Source of the DNA: Actinocatenispora rupis | Lineage (GTDB): Bacteria > Actinomycetota > Actinomycetes > Mycobacteriales > Micromonosporaceae | Direction: 5' to 3' | Length of the DNA: 46,262 bases | Assembly (NCBI RefSeq): GCF_016861975.1 | Contig: NZ_BOMB01000011.1 | Coordinates: 1-46,262 of the forward strand | Shown: positions 8,847 through 16,197 of the stretch, one piece after another | How positions within the stretch are numbered: the first letter of the stretch is position 1 | Layout of the letters: every line of letters begins with the position of its first letter | Made by a program: the position numbers and the translations under genes | Notes under the pieces: generated by a model | Database searches by the model: none | The model's input: the letters and a program-made list of their open reading frames with translations, nothing else | What the model was told of the DNA's origin: nothing

Positions 8847-10235
8847 TCAGTGGTGGAAGGCGTGCATGCCGCCACCCGAGCGGCGGCCACCGTCCCGCTC
8901 CAACTGCGCCACCGTACGCGTCAGGGTGTCCAGCAACAGGTCGGCGAGGTCCCGGCTGAAACTGTTGCGCACCACCACACGCAGCACGGCGAGGTCGGTC
9001 CGGTTCTCCGGGAAGGTGTACGCCGGCACCAGCCAACCGCCCTCGCGCAGCCCGCGCGACACGTCGAACACGTCGTAGCCGGTGACACCGTCGGCGAGGC
9101 GTACCGCGAAGACCGGCAGCTCGGAACCGTCGGTGACCAGCTCGAACTGGGGCAGCGCGGCGATCCGGCCGGACAGGTACATGGCGACGTCGCGGCACGC
9201 CTGCTGCACCGCCTTGTACCCGGCCCGGCCGAGCCGCAGGAAGTTGTAGTACTGGGCGACGACCTGCGCGCCGGGCCGCGAGAAGTTCAGCGCGAACGTC
9301 GGCATCTCGCCGCCGAGGTAGTTCACCTTGAACACCAGGTCGTCCGGCAGCGCCTCCTCGTTGCGCCACACGATCCACCCCACACCCGGGTACACCAGCC
9401 CGTACTTGTGGCCGGAGGTGTTGATGGACGCGACCCGCCGCAGCCGGAAGTCCCACGGCAGCTCGGGATCGATGAACGGGGCGATCATCGCGCCGGACGC
9501 GCCGTCCACGTGCACCGGTACGTCCGGGCCGCCGCGCGCGGCCAGATCGTCGAGTACGCCGGCGATCTCGGCGACCGGCTCGTACGAGCCGTCGAACGTG
9601 GAGCCGAGGACGGCGACCACGCCGATGGTGTTCTCGTCGCAGTGCGCCACGGCTTCGGCGGCGTCCAGGTGGAACCGTTCGCCGGACATCGGCACGTACC
9701 GCGGCTCGACCTCGAAGTAGTTGGCGAACTTCTCCCAGCAGACCTGGACGTTGACGCCCATGACGAGGTTGGGCCGGTCGGTCGACTTGCCCGCGGCGCG
9801 GCGCGCGTGCTGCCAGCGGCGCTTGAGCGCGAGCCCGCCGAGCATCGCCGCCTCGCTCGACCCGGTGGTGGAGCAGCCGGTGGCGTGCGTGTGGTCCGGG
9901 CTGTGCCACAGGTGCGCGAGCATCGAGACGCAGCGCGCCTCCAGCTCTGCGGTCTGCGGGTACTCGTCCTTGTCGATCATGTTCTTGTCGAACGACTCGG
10001 TCATCAGTACGCGGGCCTCGGGTTCCATCCACGTGGTGACGAACGTGGCGAGGTTGAGCCGCGCGTTGCCGTCGAGCATCAGTTCGTCGTGGATGATCTC
10101 GGCAGCGGTCGCGGGCAGCATCTCGTTGTCCGGCAACCGGTTCCGCGACACGGACCTCGTCTCCGCGGTCCGTGCGTACATCGGGTTGATGTCGAGATCC
10201 GGCCGCCCGACCGGATGCGTCCGCTTGACTGCCAT
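8847..10235 (-). CDS. gadB: Glutamate decarboxylase (PLP-dependent)
   Basis: Converts L-glutamate to 4-aminobutyrate and CO2, consuming a cytoplasmic proton. 462 residues, the usual GadA/GadB length. Visible family features: NLATFVTTWMEPEA, the substrate-region TTGSSEAAMLG, VHVDGASG (PLP-contacting Asp), and the Schiff-base lysine in NTSGHKYGLVYPGVGW at residue 277 (276 in E. coli GadB). The C-terminus ends in HAFHH; a near-terminal His closes the active site at neutral pH in E. coli GadB, so similar pH control is possible but inferred. Start ATG 10235 is preceded by GGGGGAG; the frame to 10424 has no ribosome site. No GABA antiporter lies nearby, so a GABA-shunt or acid-tolerance role cannot be separated. 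Confidence 0.95.
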   Translation of the reverse strand: MAVKRTHPVGRPDLDINPMYARTAETRSVSRNRLPDNEMLPATAAEIIHDELMLDGNARLNLATFVTTWMEPEARVLMTESFDKNMIDKDEYPQTAELEARCVSMLAHLWHSPDHTHATGCSTTGSSEAAMLGGLALKRRWQHARRAAGKSTDRPNLVMGVNVQVCWEKFANYFEVEPRYVPMSGERFHLDAAEAVAHCDENTIGVVAVLGSTFDGSYEPVAEIAGVLDDLAARGGPDVPVHVDGASGAMIAPFIDPELPWDFRLRRVASINTSGHKYGLVYPGVGWIVWRNEEALPDDLVFKVNYLGGEMPTFALNFSRPGAQVVAQYYNFLRLGRAGYKAVQQACRDVAMYLSGRIAALPQFELVTDGSELPVFAVRLADGVTGYDVFDVSRGLREGGWLVPAYTFPENRTDLAVLRVVVRNSFSRDLADLLLDTLTRTVAQLERDGGRRSGGGMHAFHH

Positions 10236-10346
10236 CGCACTCCCCCACAGATGCGCCGGTTGCCCGTCATCATCCTCCGATGGGCCGCGCGAACGGCGGG
10301 AAACGCGGCGATCGACCGCCCCTTTTGGTAGGAAAGTTACGGCGTT

Positions 10347-10382
10347 TGATGTCTTGACGCATGAGATCGCCGTTGACATCAT
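10347..10382 (+). promoter_or_regulatory. Dyad and promoter-like element in the gad/Cys-rich intergenic region
   Basis: TGATGTC (10347-10353) and GACATCA (10375-10381) form a perfect 7-bp inverted repeat 21 bp apart. It brackets TTGACG (10354-10359) and a CATCAT hexamer (10377-10382) 17 bp downstream. This would drive the plus-strand leader peptide starting at 10441. Spacing-based inference; the -10 is poor. Confidence 0.35.
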
Positions 10383-10440
10383 TGCCCCATTCGCCCCCGT
10401 ACCTGTCGCCATGGCGATGACCACACCCCTCGGAGGTCAC

Positions 10441-10470
10441 ATGCGACAGACCCACCAGATCCCCCGGTAG
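10441..10470 (+). CDS. Leader peptide MRQTHQIPR
   Basis: A 9-residue open frame (MRQTHQIPR, TAG stop) with a near-ideal ribosome site, GGAGG, ending 4 nt before the ATG. It begins about 60 nt after the putative promoter and 240 nt before the Cys-rich gene. Two competing hairpins lie between. Short, well-initiated frames before structured leaders act as attenuation sensors in actinobacteria; the peptide has two Gln but no Cys or Trp run, so the sensed signal is unknown. Too short to be excluded as chance, but the ribosome site is among the strongest in the window. Confidence 0.45.
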   Translation: MRQTHQIPR

Positions 10471-10555
10471 CACCAGATCCGCGCGCCGATCCCCACGGCG
10501 CCGCACCACCACCGCGCCCTGCCCCTCGGCACGCGGTGGCCCGCCCCGGGTCCAC

Positions 10556-10574
10556 ACAGTCCACTGTGGACTGT
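10556..10574. repeat. 19-bp perfect palindrome with TCCACTGTGGA core
   Basis: ACAGTCCACTGTGGACTGT, arms of 9 bp around a single T. It lies in the leader of the Cys-rich operon between the leader peptide and the competing hairpins. It may be a regulator site or one copy of a genome-wide motif, since the 11-bp core recurs at 8726 and 18862. Confidence 0.6.
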
Positions 10575-10591
10575 CCGTACCCATCCTCGCG

Positions 10592-10666
10592 GTGCCGGTC
10601 GCGCACCGGCACGCCGTACCGCCGCACCGGTCGCGCCGATCCCCCGACCGGGCGGTACGGCGTGCC
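10592..10666 (+). promoter_or_regulatory. Mutually exclusive hairpins (attenuator-like) before the Cys-rich operon
   Basis: Hairpin A: GTGCCGG (10592-10598) with CCGGCAC (10606-10612). Hairpin B: a perfect 16-bp inverted repeat, 10608-10623 with 10651-10666, closed by an inner CGGTCG/CGACCG stem (10628-10633, 10645-10650). A and B share 10608-10612 and cannot form together. B is by far the more stable and ends 42 nt before the next start codon. The layout, leader peptide then alternative stems, resembles transcription attenuation. No T-tract follows B. Confidence 0.5.
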
Positions 10667-10708
10667 CGTGGTACGGCCGGATCGCCTGGCACGAAAGGGT
10701 TTCCCGTC

Positions 10709-11134
10709 ATGGGCTGTTCCAACAGCGCATCCCCCGCGTACGGCGAGATGTCGTGGTTCTGCTGCGGCGCCGCCTGGGGTCCGTGCGGTTCCGCCGGCGG
10801 CGGCGCCTGCGGTACCTGCAACTCCGGCTCGCACCAGTGCGCATGGCCGCACGCCTCCGACGCCTGCTACAACATCACCCAGCCGTACGCCTGCGGCCAC
10901 AACCTCGCGCTCCGCGGCTGCGGCCACGTCTTCTACGTCACGAACCGGTGCAACGGTTCCTGCGTCAGCGCCAGCGTCGCCGACTGCGGCCCGAACACGC
11001 ACCAGTTCTGCGGCGAGTCGCACTGCTGCGGCTCCACCTGCGGTACCGACCGGCTGATCGACCTCACGCCGTCGGCGTTCAGCGCCATCGCCAGCCTGTC
11101 CAGCGGCCTCCTGCCGTGCCGGATCGACAGTTGA
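10709..11134 (+). CDS. Cysteine-rich double-psi beta-barrel-like protein
   Basis: 141 residues with 18 Cys (13 per cent), enough for nine disulfides. The N-terminal 55 residues form a Cys/Gly/Ser-rich segment (FCC, GPC, GAC, GTC spacing). The C-terminal 80 residues resemble the RlpA/barwin double-psi barrel: CGHNLALRGCGHVFYVTN, VSASVADCGPN, and DLTPSAFSAIASLSSG with GLLPCRID as in RlpA-type domains, but with Cys at many core edges. No signal peptide is seen at ATG 10709 (AAAGGG upstream) nor in the longer frame from 10592. It is the first gene of an operon with a Tat substrate and a MauE protein 13 bp and 620 bp downstream. By analogy, MauE helps mature the 12-Cys methylamine dehydrogenase small subunit, so this protein is the likely client here; sequence similarity to that subunit is not visible. 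Export might occur by co-transport with the Tat partner. Role unknown. Confidence 0.8.
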   Translation: MGCSNSASPAYGEMSWFCCGAAWGPCGSAGGGACGTCNSGSHQCAWPHASDACYNITQPYACGHNLALRGCGHVFYVTNRCNGSCVSASVADCGPNTHQFCGESHCCGSTCGTDRLIDLTPSAFSAIASLSSGLLPCRIDS

Positions 11135-11147
11135 GGAGGGGGACGAC

Positions 11148-11759
11148 ATGGACGCCATGGACCGTCGGCGGCTGCTGACCTCCGCCGTACTCGGGACCGC
11201 CGGGCTCGCCACCGCCACCGCGCTCGGCCCGCTGTCGCCGGAGCCCGCGCACGCCTCCCCCGCGCTTCCCGCGACGGAGCCGGTCGTGGAGGACCCGAAC
11301 TTCGCCGAGGGCCGGATCACCGGCATCTCCGGCACCATGCTGCTCGTGACCGGCTCGGACACGGTGCTGCACCGGATCCGGGTCACCAACGGTACGAGCA
11401 TCTGGAAGCTGTACCCGACGACGTTCGACGCGGTCGACGTCGGCGACGGCCTCTACGCCCGCGGCGTACGGATGGCGGACGGGACGCTCGCCGCGGATTC
11501 GTTGTGGGTCAACATCGTCAGCATGTCGGTGCAGATCACCGCGATCGGCAACGGCTGGCTGCACCTGGACCACGACAACAAGCGGATCGTCGGCCGGGTC
11601 GTGCCGGGGCGTACCGCCGCGGTGTACCGGGACGCGCCGACCACCGGTGACCTGTCGAAGCTGCGGGTCGGCCGCCACGCGCACATCATCGGCGCGTGGC
11701 GGCCGGACACCAACGAGGTCGACCTGGCCACCGTCTACGCGGGCACGGTGGCGGGATGA
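11148..11759 (+). CDS. Tat-exported protein with two DUF5666-like repeats
   Basis: A 203-residue exported protein. The N-terminus is a twin-arginine signal (DRRRLL, hydrophobic TSAVLGTAGLATATALG, cleavage near AHASPA at about residue 40). Two beta-rich repeats follow, about 52-125 and 126-200, of the form GRITGISGTMLLVTG...V..GD.LYARG...DGTLAADSLWVN, which resembles OB-fold DUF5666 modules. GAGGAGGGGG precedes ATG 11148; ATG 11157 is an alternative. Its stop overlaps the MauE start (ATGA), so the two are translationally coupled, and it lies 13 bp after the Cys-rich gene. A folded, signal-bearing partner next to a signal-less Cys-rich protein suggests joint Tat transport; this is inference. 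Confidence 0.8.
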   Translation: MDAMDRRRLLTSAVLGTAGLATATALGPLSPEPAHASPALPATEPVVEDPNFAEGRITGISGTMLLVTGSDTVLHRIRVTNGTSIWKLYPTTFDAVDVGDGLYARGVRMADGTLAADSLWVNIVSMSVQITAIGNGWLHLDHDNKRIVGRVVPGRTAAVYRDAPTTGDLSKLRVGRHAHIIGAWRPDTNEVDLATVYAGTVAG

Positions 11760-12568
11760 CCGTGCCGGCCGCCGTCCAGCCGCTGCTGCTGGCCCTCGTC
11801 CTCGCCGCCTCCGCCCGCGTCAAGCTGACCAGCCGTACGGCCCGCAGCCGCGCGACCGGTACGGCGCTGGCGGCGATCGTGGGCAAGCGCCGCGCCCCGC
11901 TGGCGTACGGGATGGTCGGCGGGGTCGAGGCGGTCGTCGCACTGGCGCTGCTCGCCGGCGGTGTTCCCGTTGTGCCGCAACGGATCGGGGCGGCGCTGGC
12001 GGTCGCGGCGAGCACCGCTTTCGTCGGCTACCTCGGCTACGCGCGGCTGTTCGCGCCGGACTCGTCGTGCGGCTGCGTCAGCGCGCGGCAGGCGCCGATC
12101 CGGTGGCGGTCGTTCGCGCGGGCCGTACTGCTGCTCGCCGCGTCGGTGGTGGCGCTGGTCGCCGGCACCCCGTGGCCGGCGGCGGTCGCCCGGCCGTACC
12201 TGGCGGTCGGGGTGCTCGTGGTGGAGCTCGCCGCGGTGGCGCTGCTGTCGCCGGAACTCGACGAGCGGTGGCTGTTCCCGGTGCGCCGCCTGGTACTCCG
12301 GGTCCGGCCGCACCCGCTCGCCGGCCTGGCGTACGACCTGCCGCTCGCGTCCACGGTGCGGCAGCTCGAACGCAGCCCCGCGTACCGGGAGGTGGGTGGC
12401 CGGTTGCGCAGCGACGTGCTCGACCACTGGGACGAGGGCGAGTGGCGGATCGTCTGCTACCGCACGGATTCCGCCGCCACGGCGGTGTTCGCGGTACCGC
12501 GGCTGCGCTACGACCCCGACTCGGTACGCGTCGCCGTGGTCACCGATCCCGAGCCCGTACCGGCCTGA
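11756..12568 (+). CDS. MauE/DoxX-like redox-associated membrane protein
   Basis: A 270-residue integral membrane protein. TM segments lie near residues 5-20, 45-65, 70-95, 115-140 and 145-165, with the charged start and GKRRAPLAYGMVGGVEAVVALALL typical of MauE. A CxC pair (SSCGCVS, about residue 102-104) sits in a loop and could be the redox site, as expected for a family linked to disulfide formation. The last 90 residues form a soluble domain (VRQLERSPAYREVGG to RYDPDSVRVAVVTD) not part of MauE proper. The ATG overlaps the preceding stop by 4 bp, giving tight coupling. Together with an 18-Cys client this argues for disulfide maturation at the membrane. MauE function itself is only known genetically, from methylamine utilization operons. 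Confidence 0.82.
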   Translation: MTVPAAVQPLLLALVLAASARVKLTSRTARSRATGTALAAIVGKRRAPLAYGMVGGVEAVVALALLAGGVPVVPQRIGAALAVAASTAFVGYLGYARLFAPDSSCGCVSARQAPIRWRSFARAVLLLAASVVALVAGTPWPAAVARPYLAVGVLVVELAAVALLSPELDERWLFPVRRLVLRVRPHPLAGLAYDLPLASTVRQLERSPAYREVGGRLRSDVLDHWDEGEWRIVCYRTDSAATAVFAVPRLRYDPDSVRVAVVTDPEPVPA

Positions 12569-12626: not shown

Positions 12627-13595
12627 TCACGCGGGGAGTACCGCCGCCGAGGTCCGGGTGCGATCGTCCGATGTGGACTGTCGCGCCCGGACCGCCGTCG
12701 CGGCGTCCTGCTCGATCAGGTCGGCGTTGACCATCGCGCCCGCGCGGGCGCCCGCGGCCGCCGCGGTGATGAGCTGCCCGGGCGGGTCCGCGGCGTTGCC
12801 GACCGCCCACACCCCCGGCACGCTGGCCCGACCGGTCTCGTCGGTGTCGATCCAGGTACCCGTCGGGCCCTCGCGCAGCGCCAGGCCCAGCGCGTCCGGC
12901 AGCGTCCGGTCCACCTGCATCCGGCTGCCGGCGAACAGCGCCGCACGCGGGTGTTCGGTACCGTCGGCGAGCCGTACCGCGGTCAGGTGGTCGTCCTCGA
13001 CGGTGACGCCGGTGACGCGCCCGTCGACCACCCGTACGCCGATCGCGTCGAGCATGGCGCGGTCCTCCGCCGACACCTCCGCGGTGTGCGGGAACAGCAC
13101 CACGTCGGCCGACCACTGCCGGAGCAGCTGCGCGCGGTGCGTGGTCATCGGCCCACCGAGTACGCCGATCGGCCGGTCCGCCACCTCGTACCCGTGGCAG
13201 TACGGGCAGTGCAGGACGTCGCGTCCCCAGCGCTCGGCCAGGCCCGGGATGTCCGGCAGCTCGTCGCGTACGCCGCCGGCGAGTACCAGGCGGCGCGCGG
13301 TGACCGCGGAGCCGCCGGCCAGTACGGCGTGGAAGCCGTCGCCGGTGCGGGTCACCGCGGTGACGGTGCCGGTCCTGATCTCGCCGCCGTAGCCGGCGAC
13401 CTCGGCGCGGCCGGCGGACAGCAGCTCGGCCGGCGCGGCGCCGTCCCGGGACAGGTACCCGTGCAGGTGGGCGGCGGGTGCGTTGCGCGGGTTTCCGGCG
13501 TCCACCACCAGTACGCGGCGGCGGGCCCGGGTGAGGACGAGCGCCGCGCTGAGCCCCGCCGCGCCACCGCCGACCACCAGTACGTCGTGATCCAT
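12627..13595 (-). CDS. Thioredoxin-reductase-like FAD disulfide oxidoreductase
   Basis: A 322-residue flavoprotein of the low-molecular-weight thioredoxin reductase superfamily. FAD motif VVGGGAAGLSAALVL at the N-terminus, active-site HCPYCHGYEVADRP at about 129-142 (CxxC), NAD(P)-domain GVLGGPMTTHRAQLL (note no clean GxGxxA) and the FAD-closing motif VPGVWAVGNAADPPGQLITAAAAGARAGAM near the C-terminus. The CPYCHGYE form is that of TrxR-like proteins without a thioredoxin partner and of the GliT/HlmI dithiol oxidases. Start ATG 13595 has GGAGG 9 nt upstream. It lies tail to tail with the MauE operon, so a functional link through thiol chemistry is attractive but not shown. Divergent from pirin. 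Confidence 0.88.
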   Translation of the reverse strand: MDHDVLVVGGGAAGLSAALVLTRARRRVLVVDAGNPRNAPAAHLHGYLSRDGAAPAELLSAGRAEVAGYGGEIRTGTVTAVTRTGDGFHAVLAGGSAVTARRLVLAGGVRDELPDIPGLAERWGRDVLHCPYCHGYEVADRPIGVLGGPMTTHRAQLLRQWSADVVLFPHTAEVSAEDRAMLDAIGVRVVDGRVTGVTVEDDHLTAVRLADGTEHPRAALFAGSRMQVDRTLPDALGLALREGPTGTWIDTDETGRASVPGVWAVGNAADPPGQLITAAAAGARAGAMVNADLIEQDAATAVRARQSTSDDRTRTSAAVLPA

Positions 13596-13833: not shown

Positions 13834-14808
13834 ATGCCAGCGGTCACCGTGGAGAATCTTCTGGTTCTGCCCCGCGTACCCGAGATCGCCCCGACCCAGG
13901 TCGACCGCGAGGTCCGCTCCGTCACGACCGCGCCCGCCGGCTTCGAGGGCGAAGGCTTCCCGGTCCGGCGCGCGTTCGCCGGCGTCGACCTGAAGGACCT
14001 CGACCCGTTCATCCACATGGACCAGATGGGCGAGGTGGAGTACGCGCCGGGCGAGCCCAAGGGTACGCCGTGGCACCCGCACCGCGGCTTCGAGACCGTC
14101 ACGTACATGATCGACGGGACGTTCCAGCACCACGACTCGAACGGCGGCGGCGGGCTCATCACCGACGGCGACACCCAGTGGATGACCGCCGGCGGCGGCA
14201 TCCTGCACATCGAGAAGCCGCCGGAGTCGCTCGTCGTGTCCGGCGGGCTGTTCCACGGCTTCCAGCTCTGGGTCAACCTGCCCGCCAGCCTCAAGATGAC
14301 GCAGCCGCGGTACCAGGACATCCGGGGCGGCGAGGTCGCGCTGCTGTCGTCGACCGACGGCGGGGCGCTCGTCCGCGTCATCGCCGGCTCCGTCGGCGAC
14401 CACGACGGCCCCGGCGTCACCCACACCCCGATCACCCTCGTACACGCCACCGTCGCCGCCGGCGCGCGGCTGCGGATGCCGTGGCGCACCGACTTCAACG
14501 CCCTCGTGTACGTGCTCGCCGGGCGCGGCACCGTCGGACCGTCCCGGCGACCCGTCGAATCCGGCCAGCTCGCGGTGTTCGGCCCCGGCGACACGATCAC
14601 CGTCGACGCCGCCGACACGCAGGAGTCGCGCAGCCCGGCCCTGGAAGTACTGGTGCTGGGCGGGGCGCCGATCCGCGAACCCGTCGCCGCGTACGGGCCG
14701 TTCGTCATGAACACCCGCCGCGAACTGATCCAGGCGTTCGAGGACTACCAGGCCGGCCGGCTCGGATCCATCCCCGCCGAGCCGCACCCCGGACACGACG
14801 TCCTCTGA
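13834..14808 (+). CDS. Pirin family protein
   Basis: A 324-residue bicupin of the pirin family. The N-terminal cupin shows DPFIHMDQMGEVEYAPGEPKGTPWHPHRGFETVTYMIDG with the metal-binding His residues (HPHRGFE) and a downstream HIEKP; FHGFQLWVNLP marks the inter-domain region. The C-terminal cupin holds YVLAGRGTVG and the PIREPVAAYGPFVMNT motif typical of pirins. Family roles are quercetinase activity or metal-dependent transcriptional co-regulation; none can be assigned here. ATG 13834 is preceded by GAGGAG. The upstream palindromes suggest redox or phenolic-responsive control. A 12-bp hairpin terminator follows directly. Confidence 0.93.
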   Translation: MPAVTVENLLVLPRVPEIAPTQVDREVRSVTTAPAGFEGEGFPVRRAFAGVDLKDLDPFIHMDQMGEVEYAPGEPKGTPWHPHRGFETVTYMIDGTFQHHDSNGGGGLITDGDTQWMTAGGGILHIEKPPESLVVSGGLFHGFQLWVNLPASLKMTQPRYQDIRGGEVALLSSTDGGALVRVIAGSVGDHDGPGVTHTPITLVHATVAAGARLRMPWRTDFNALVYVLAGRGTVGPSRRPVESGQLAVFGPGDTITVDAADTQESRSPALEVLVLGGAPIREPVAAYGPFVMNTRRELIQAFEDYQAGRLGSIPAEPHPGHDVL

Positions 14809-15085: not shown

Positions 15086-16018
15086 TCAGCGGCGCGGTTT
15101 CCTGGAGGTCGCGGCGCGCTTCGCGGCCGACTTGGTGGGCCGCTTGGCGGCCGACTTCGTCGGGCGCTTGGCGGGAGTGCGGCTGGTTGCCTTGGCCGAC
15201 TTCGTTGCCGGGGCCTTCGCCGCGGCCTTCGTGACCGTCGCCTTCTTCGCGGGCGCCGTACGGGTGGCCGACTTCGTCGCACGCTTGGCCGGAGCCTTCG
15301 CCGCGGACTTCGTTGCGCGCTTGGCCGTGGTCTTCGCCGCCGCCGTCTTCCTTGTGGTACTTGCCTTTGCGGGTGCCACCTTCGTGGTCGTCTTCGCCGC
15401 GGCCTTGGTCGTAGCGGCCTTGCGGGTCGTGGCCTTGGCGGTACGGGTGGACTTCGCGGGAGCCTTGGCGGCTGCGCGGGTCGTCTTGGCCGGCGCGGTC
15501 TTCGCCGTCGCGCGGGTCGACTTCGTCGCGGGCGTGGCCTTCGTCGTCGTCTTCGCCGTCGCGCGGGTGGCCTTGGCGGTGGCGGACTTCGCCGCCGTTG
15601 CGGCCTTCGTCGCCTTGGCGGTCGCCGCCTTGGTTGCCTTGGTGGCGGCCGCCTTCGTCGCCTTGGCCGCGGACTTCGTCGCCTTGGTGGCGGTCTTGGT
15701 CGCGGGGCGGGCGGTCTTCGTGGTCGGGGCCTTGGGTGGTTTCTTCTTTCCGGTCACCAGATCCTTGAACGTCTGGCCCGGACGGAACGCCGGAACGGAC
15801 GTCTTCCGCAGTTTCACCGGCGCTCCGGTACGCGGGTTCCGTGCCGTACGAGCGGAACGGGCGCGTTTCTCGAAGACGCCGAAGCCGGCGATGGAAATGG
15901 TGCCACCCTTGGCAACGGTGCGTTGGATCTCGTTGAGTACGGCGTCGAGCGCCTCGGTGGCCTGCTTCTTGTCGCCGATGCGCGCGGTCAGCGCGGTGAC
16001 GAGCTCTGCCTTGTTCAC
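15086..16018 (-). CDS. HU-family nucleoid protein with long Lys/Ala/Thr tail (HupB/HupS type)
   Basis: A 310-residue histone-like protein. Residues 1-90 are a complete HU domain: NKAELVTALTARIGDKKQATEALDAV, TISIAGFGVFEKRARSARTARNPRTG (the DNA-binding arm) and VPAFRPGQTFKDLV. The remaining 215 residues consist almost only of Lys, Ala, Thr, Arg and Ser in SPKK/PAKK-like repeats (ATKATKAA, AAKRPTKSAAKR), as in mycobacterial HupB and streptomycete HupS, but longer than those (about 214-220 residues in total). The tail binds and compacts DNA and is a target for acetylation in mycobacteria. GTG 16018 follows GGGAG at 5 nt; ATG 16030 lacks a site. A CATACT hexamer at 16071-16066 may be the -10. Confidence 0.95.
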   Translation of the reverse strand: MNKAELVTALTARIGDKKQATEALDAVLNEIQRTVAKGGTISIAGFGVFEKRARSARTARNPRTGAPVKLRKTSVPAFRPGQTFKDLVTGKKKPPKAPTTKTARPATKTATKATKSAAKATKAAATKATKAATAKATKAATAAKSATAKATRATAKTTTKATPATKSTRATAKTAPAKTTRAAAKAPAKSTRTAKATTRKAATTKAAAKTTTKVAPAKASTTRKTAAAKTTAKRATKSAAKAPAKRATKSATRTAPAKKATVTKAAAKAPATKSAKATSRTPAKRPTKSAAKRPTKSAAKRAATSRKPRR

Positions 16019-16197
16019 GACATCTCCCATACGAGGTCGGTGAGCATGTGGCTGCCTTGTGGAACAGTATGCACACAGATTGCTCAACTGACCACATAGG
16101 ACAGCTCGCGGAATTCCGCGTGGCTATGGACGATCGGCCCGCGGAGATGTGTCCTAATGCGACGGTGAAAGGCCGGAACCGTTTGCCCGCAACGGTT

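Follow-up and report, generated by a model that had tools for sequence, protein, structure and literature searches.

The window analysed here is a stretch of 46,262 nucleotides of Actinocatenispora rupis DNA (contig NZ_BOMB01000011.1, positions 1 to 46,262), and the subject of this report is a set of three consecutive genes within it, referred to as C, T and M. They encode a Cys-rich double-psi beta-barrel (DPBB) protein, a partner protein with a twin-arginine translocation (Tat) signal and a membrane protein of the MauE family. Comparison with related genomes confirmed that the C-T-M trio is real and conserved; it recurs in many actinobacteria of soil. The genes and two of their sequence features are the following.

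10709..11134, + strand: gene C, 141 amino acids, Cys-rich double-psi beta-barrel protein without signal peptide
11148..11759, + strand: gene T, Tat-signal protein with two OB-fold domains (weakly DUF5666-like)
11756..12568, + strand: gene M, MauE-family membrane protein plus a C-terminal domain of about 100 amino acids
11148..11255, + strand: twin-arginine signal of T, DRRRLLTSAVLG...AHA, signal end set by eye
12068..12076, + strand: Cys-Gly-Cys of M (residues 105-107), the invariant CxC motif (62 of 62 M proteins)

The stop codon of C is separated from the start of T by 13 nt, and T and M overlap by 4 nt in an ATGA that puts the start of M within the stop of T. Protein C contains 18 Cys in 141 residues, or 12.8%. 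These gene facts had been reported in an initial annotation made from the DNA letters (18 Cys, 141 residues, a 13-bp gap and ATGA coupling) and were confirmed from the sequence.

Fourteen of the Cys of C were invariant across 56 aligned members, and the core was conserved along its length. The Pfam family DPBB_1 matched the C of the window below threshold (E 0.034, 14.8 bits), and none of the three C members scanned reached the cut-off of 28.8 bits, the best being a Streptomyces protein (L054) with 27.2 bits and an E value of 4.8e-6. Structure prediction for 10709-11134, which the initial annotation had suggested, gave an AlphaFold model with a clear DPBB, and among its fold matches are the secreted, Cys-rich proteins kiwellin, barwin and sugarwin. 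According to this model C is a double-psi barrel of the RlpA/expansin type, so that the RlpA/barwin-like fold proposed earlier was supported by the model with the Pfam match remaining sub-threshold. The best start of C was found 2-19 residues ahead of the core in 66 of 66 loci and leaves no signal peptide, in agreement with the earlier description of C as signal-less; C thus has no signal of its own, as is characteristic of a Tat hitchhiker.

In T an RR motif followed by a hydrophobic stretch, as in Tat substrates, was present in 66 of 66 trio proteins. The peak hydropathy after RR ranged from 1.42 to 1.91 with a mean of 1.67, and a signal end of the AxA type such as AFA was usual as judged by eye. 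The Tat signal assigned to T by the initial annotation therefore turned out to be a textbook one in every member. The rest of the protein is modelled as two OB folds and the copy in the window has zero Cys. T missed the Pfam cut-off for DUF5666, to which a weak match was seen in two members, the best with 19.9 bits against 27 (L005).

Protein M matched the Pfam family MauE (PF07291) with 50 bits against a cut-off of 27 (E 4.7e-13), which upholds its first description as a MauE-type membrane protein. It comprises five hydrophobic stretches followed by the C-terminal domain. A CxC motif between the third and fourth hydrophobic stretches was found in all 62 M proteins examined and reads SCGC in the window; its position as a MauE trait is drawn from the MauE proteins compared here and is not a published criterion. 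The mean net charges of the 62 trio M proteins were +5.74 for loop 1, -0.58 for loop 2, +2.76 for the CxC loop, -0.40 for loop 4 and +3.63 for the segment after the fifth hydrophobic stretch, and the CxC loop was net positive in 59 of the 62. Five other MauE proteins, of the DCGCFG type, gave -0.2 for loop 1, +1.0 for loop 2 and -0.6 for the CxC loop. By the positive-inside rule this suggests that the CxC of M faces the cytoplasm and that of the DCGCFG type the outside, and the two opposite loop-charge patterns suggest that MauE homologs may occupy the membrane in opposite orientations. With its CxC apparently cytoplasmic M, if it oxidises C, probably acts before export.

One of these five MauE proteins of the DCGCFG type is encoded in the genome of A. 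rupis itself, on contig C40 (L111:2982-4959). The gene overlaps the start of a gene that by eye encodes a membrane-anchored, DsbA-like protein with a CPNC motif, and downstream of the two lies a gene that by eye is peroxiredoxin-like. The two overlapping genes are probably an ordinary MauE-DsbA pair.

To establish how regularly the three genes occur together, genome contigs were scanned with a two-row C profile seeded from trio members, giving 65 loci in Streptosporangiaceae, Thermomonosporaceae, Micromonosporaceae, Pseudonocardiaceae and Streptomycetaceae. C was followed by T in the same order and on the same strand in 65 of 65 loci, and M was present in 64 of 65, the contig ending first at the remaining one. 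Further genome samples were chosen irrespective of T or M. Among 130 genomes of one family of the Streptosporangiaceae type (that of genome G131), strong C, strong T and M (E < 1e-100) were each found in 9, and these were identical genomes. In Micromonosporaceae C was present in 45 of 150 genomes, counting that of the window, and the other 44 all carried C-T-M in order (44/44); with a crude pattern, a Tat-like start of T was recognised in 41 of the 43 examined of these 44, the pattern having missed the C core of L182. Some species are represented both among these 44 genomes and among the 65 loci of the scan, so that the counts are not independent. The initial annotation had asked for this search and had named rare co-occurrence as the outcome that would speak against its proposal; the three families were found to co-occur almost perfectly (65/65, 44/44 and the same 9/130), well above what chance would give.

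Two of the three other genomes of the window's genus carried C. Across broader samples of the class and the phylum it was rare: of 296 genomes of the class 2 had it, and of 396 genomes of the phylum 8, among which only the window's own gave a strong match; T was found in 3 of the 396, again strong only in the window's own. L075, one of the seven weak C matches in the phylum sample, looked by eye like a normal signal-bearing RlpA, and L079, one of the two weak T matches, like a DUF5666-like secreted protein. The pairwise distances of C, T and M were correlated (r 0.91-0.95, 62 members), as expected for one inherited operon, and the joint tree of the three proteins mostly tracks families. The alignments covered 56 of 66 members (A4), 52 of 66 (A5) and 31 of 65 (A6); L009 is absent from those of T and M, and L041, L049 and L067 are absent from that of M owing to contig ends. 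L018 and L004 are seemingly one organism. No further conserved neighbour was detected: apart from C, T, M and a frame overlapping C in antisense, the most frequent cluster occurred in 7 of 66 loci in a survey whose simple gene caller recovered C in 22 of 66 and M in 51 of 66, so that weaker neighbours may escape it.

In the G131 family the M profile matched in 117 of the 130 genomes, most along nearly the whole of M. We examined 24 loci with such long M proteins (L091-L110, L117 and L130-L132), namely five with weak C matches, ten best paralogs, five second copies in trio genomes and four more. Directly upstream of the long M, on the same strand, all 24 carried a single gene with a T-like N-terminal and a C-like C-terminal half. 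In profile comparison T matched the N-terminal half (Prob 96.6, E 6.3e-10) and C the C-terminal half (Prob 93.8, E 1.7e-7), and the five weak C matches among the 130 genomes proved to be such T-C fusions. Of 246 genomes of the class, 21 carried the fusion, and these all belong to a single family. It was not found in the genome of A. rupis, nor at 11 loci with only a short MauE, one of which (L127) starts at a contig end and is uninformative. Since T and C form a single gene in one lineage and neighbouring genes in another, we concluded that the two probably function together.

Twenty-three fusion-linked M proteins, L117 being excluded from the set, had mean net charges of +3.52, -0.35, +3.35, -0.22 and +0.09 in the same order of segments as given above. 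In the C domain of the fusions 8 Cys were invariant or nearly so over 14 rows. The Asp of DCGP, which we take to be the equivalent of the catalytic Asp of the glycan-cleaving lytic transglycosylase RlpA, was invariant in 56 C proteins and replaced in 12 of the 14 aligned fusions. Homologous T, C and M make up both the trio and the two-gene unit of fusion and long MauE; the latter differs in its fused order T-C, in having fewer Cys and in the absence of a hydrophobic signal stretch. A gene for a MarR-type regulator, identified by eye, recurs about 1-2 kb upstream of the fusion in L091, L092, L106, L107 and L109.

From these results we tentatively propose, at somewhat less than even confidence, that the trio is a self-contained module devoted to a single heavily cross-linked barrel protein, which would be produced, paired with T, oxidised by M and exported by Tat. 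C, which is without its own signal, would bind T in the cytoplasm. M, with its apparently cytoplasmic CxC, may supply or shuffle oxidising equivalents for the disulfides of C, whose 14 invariant Cys would be enough for seven disulfides, formed before export. The folded T-C pair would then be exported by Tat via the signal of T, with C as the hitchhiker. The route inferred in the initial annotation, in which a signal-less Cys-rich protein may ride with the Tat partner and be oxidised by MauE, is supported in part. Outside the cell C might be a wall or surface protein, which is a guess from its fold. In a more specific version, which we regard as possible and rather doubtful, bacteria would have a dedicated disulfide route on the cytoplasmic side: a MauE with inverted topology would introduce about seven disulfides into a protein that has no signal, and the folded product would leave with its OB-fold Tat partner.

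The proposed module would fit what is known of the Tat system, which prefers folded cargo, and MelC1-MelC2 of Streptomyces is an example of a Tat hitchhiker pair. Signal-less partners carried by Tat are described for HybOC and PaoABC (PMC4273604). These pairs resemble C and T in being adjacent genes of which one partner has a Tat signal and the other has none; they differ in that the trio is without a cofactor enzyme, its cargo is Cys-rich and a MauE is part of the unit, and co-export of T and C is so far our inference. A single-chain antibody fragment (scFv) without cytoplasmic disulfides was described as not exported by Tat, and pre-folding of disulfide-rich cargo before Tat has been done artificially with the cytoplasmic oxidases of CyDisCo (both PMC6708511). 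If the proposal is true, the trio would do the same in nature, in compact form, for a disulfide-rich protein bound for Tat, and MauE, best known from methylamine metabolism, would have a further function with a well-defined client. Both ideas are open to testing in simple strains, thanks to the fusion relatives and to the two opposite loop-charge patterns of MauE.

Several observations weigh against the proposed module. An RRRxLAAAxLG-like start is mostly kept in the fusions: among 42 distinct proteins, 37 have RR where the motif was matched (the rows of L097, L102 and L108 were mis-anchored, L099 with RWR and L152 with RAR are without RR, and L097 reads RWR by eye). The hydrophobic stretch after this motif was absent in the 42 fusions, in which peak hydropathy had a mean of 0.54 and a maximum of 1.29. 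By their sequence the T-C fusions therefore do not look exported, and the fusion argues for a partnership of T and C and is no proof of export. Residues 21-30 of C were modelled poorly (mean pLDDT 50). For 33 of the 66 loci there is an earlier in-frame start of C within 60 codons, which at three loci from Micromonospora (L047, L049 and L055) would add a hydrophobic N-terminus, MVSVITIAIYIDI...; at these three the earlier start coincides in part with the ribosome-binding site that serves the usual one, and the start with the ribosome-binding site is probably the right one. Seven other short MauE proteins share the M-like charge pattern, which is therefore not unique to the trio, and for the sidedness of M the positive-inside rule is the sole basis.

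The main rival is that C is a cytoplasmic, reduced barrel that binds a metal (zinc, copper or iron) or senses redox state, that T, as an OB protein, is secreted independently of C and that M serves cytoplasmic thiol balance, a task that DoxX-type proteins are thought to handle. A CxxCxxC cluster in the C domain of the fusions, FCDRCVEC, could be a metal site and weighs against the proposed module. Against the rival, the fusion sets T-like and C-like halves in one compartment while the T of the trio is clearly Tat-marked, and the 14 invariant Cys lie in a fold that matches kiwellin, barwin and sugarwin. We consider the metal-binding or sensing role possible and rather doubtful.

Somewhat less probable in our view is a sequence of events in which C and T leave together by Tat and M oxidises or shuffles the cysteines of C from outside, after export, the positive-inside reading being wrong. 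MauE has been speculated to act on the disulfides of the beta subunit of methylamine dehydrogenase (MADH), according to PMC7794033, and the MauE on contig C40 adjoins the protein that by eye is DsbA-like, with its CPNC and N-terminal anchor; M proteins of the trio and those linked to the fusion, however, have loop charges opposite to those of this DCGCFG-type MauE. That the trio is a precursor-type cluster, like those of ribosomally synthesised and post-translationally modified peptides (RiPPs), with C cut or further modified and M as the modifying enzyme, is very improbable: the decRiPPter approach did yield three mauE-bearing candidate families from Streptomyces whose precursors contain no fewer than 8 Cys (PMC7794033), but C is modelled as a folded DPBB of 141 amino acids with a conserved core, and no conserved protease, transporter or other maturase was found nearby with the simple gene caller that recovered C in 22 of 66 loci.

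Compared with known systems, the trio combines familiar kinds of parts in a way that is new. In the mau cluster MauE goes with MauD and the disulfide-rich small subunit of methylamine dehydrogenase. The trio resembles it in that a CxC-bearing membrane protein of the MauE family (PF07291) is linked to a Cys-rich client, and differs in that this client is a signal-less DPBB protein and that M has an extra C-terminal domain. The MADH small subunit (PF02975) gave 0 matches in the genome of A. rupis, as it did in the control genomes, so that this result does not prove the absence of methylamine dehydrogenase stated in the initial annotation. The barrels of RlpA, expansin, kiwellin and the Streptomyces papain inhibitor differ from C, which has 14 invariant Cys, no signal peptide and a dedicated T and M. 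Outside mau clusters, MauE beside Cys-rich products is described for the Streptomyces RiPP candidates, and these three families, likened here by description only, are the nearest precedent in the literature (PMC7794033). The initial annotation knew of no description of the trio; none was found in the titles and abstract openings searched, and the claim stands with the limit that MauE beside Cys-rich products has this precedent. The position of long M paralogs directly after a T-C fusion gene, in 24 of 24 loci, is new.

The region upstream of C had been described as an attenuator-like leader. Three features were located in it.

10354..10382, + strand: promoter-like pair TTGACG-17-CATCAT with extended TG, consensus scan 1 against 0.1 expected
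10441..10470, + strand: short upstream frame MRQTHQIPR*, with GGAGG ahead
10604..10670, + strand: 20-nt inverted repeat, 95% complementary, with a 27-nt loop, just before C

The 268-nt leader is predicted to fold more stably than its shuffled versions (z -4.5). Two adjoining TTGAC elements (TTGACG...GTTGACA..AT, window 10354-10380) are kept in both congeners, L169 and L170, and so are the start context of the MRQ frame (MRQHPPPAPEVG, MRQHPPPAVEVD), the -35-like TTGACG element and GGAGG; the congener frames read MRQHPPPA.EV. where that of the window reads MRQTHQIPR. No MRQ frame was found upstream of C in the 65 scanned loci and 41 other family genomes, some of which carry unrelated short frames. 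The leader peptide has no Cys codons, a simple scan found no terminator-like site in the leader, Rfam gave no match, and no second copy of the leader was found in the genome of A. rupis (44 matches, the non-self ones of at most about 70 nt). A search for TTGAC/TANNNT upstream of C gave 0 of 66 loci, the upstream stretch of L057 being short, and was not used. A ribosome-mediated attenuator is not supported and seems improbable, as among the loci examined the MRQ frame was seen only in the genus and neither a terminator-like site nor an Rfam match was found.

In the window the trio is flanked by genes for a glutamate decarboxylase (8847-10424) and a thioredoxin-reductase-like flavoprotein (12627-13595), both on the opposite strand, and a pirin gene lies nearby (13834-14808). 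Further along, at 15086-16087 on the - strand, we noted by eye a histone-like DNA-binding protein, whose tail, rich in Lys and Ala, is very long.
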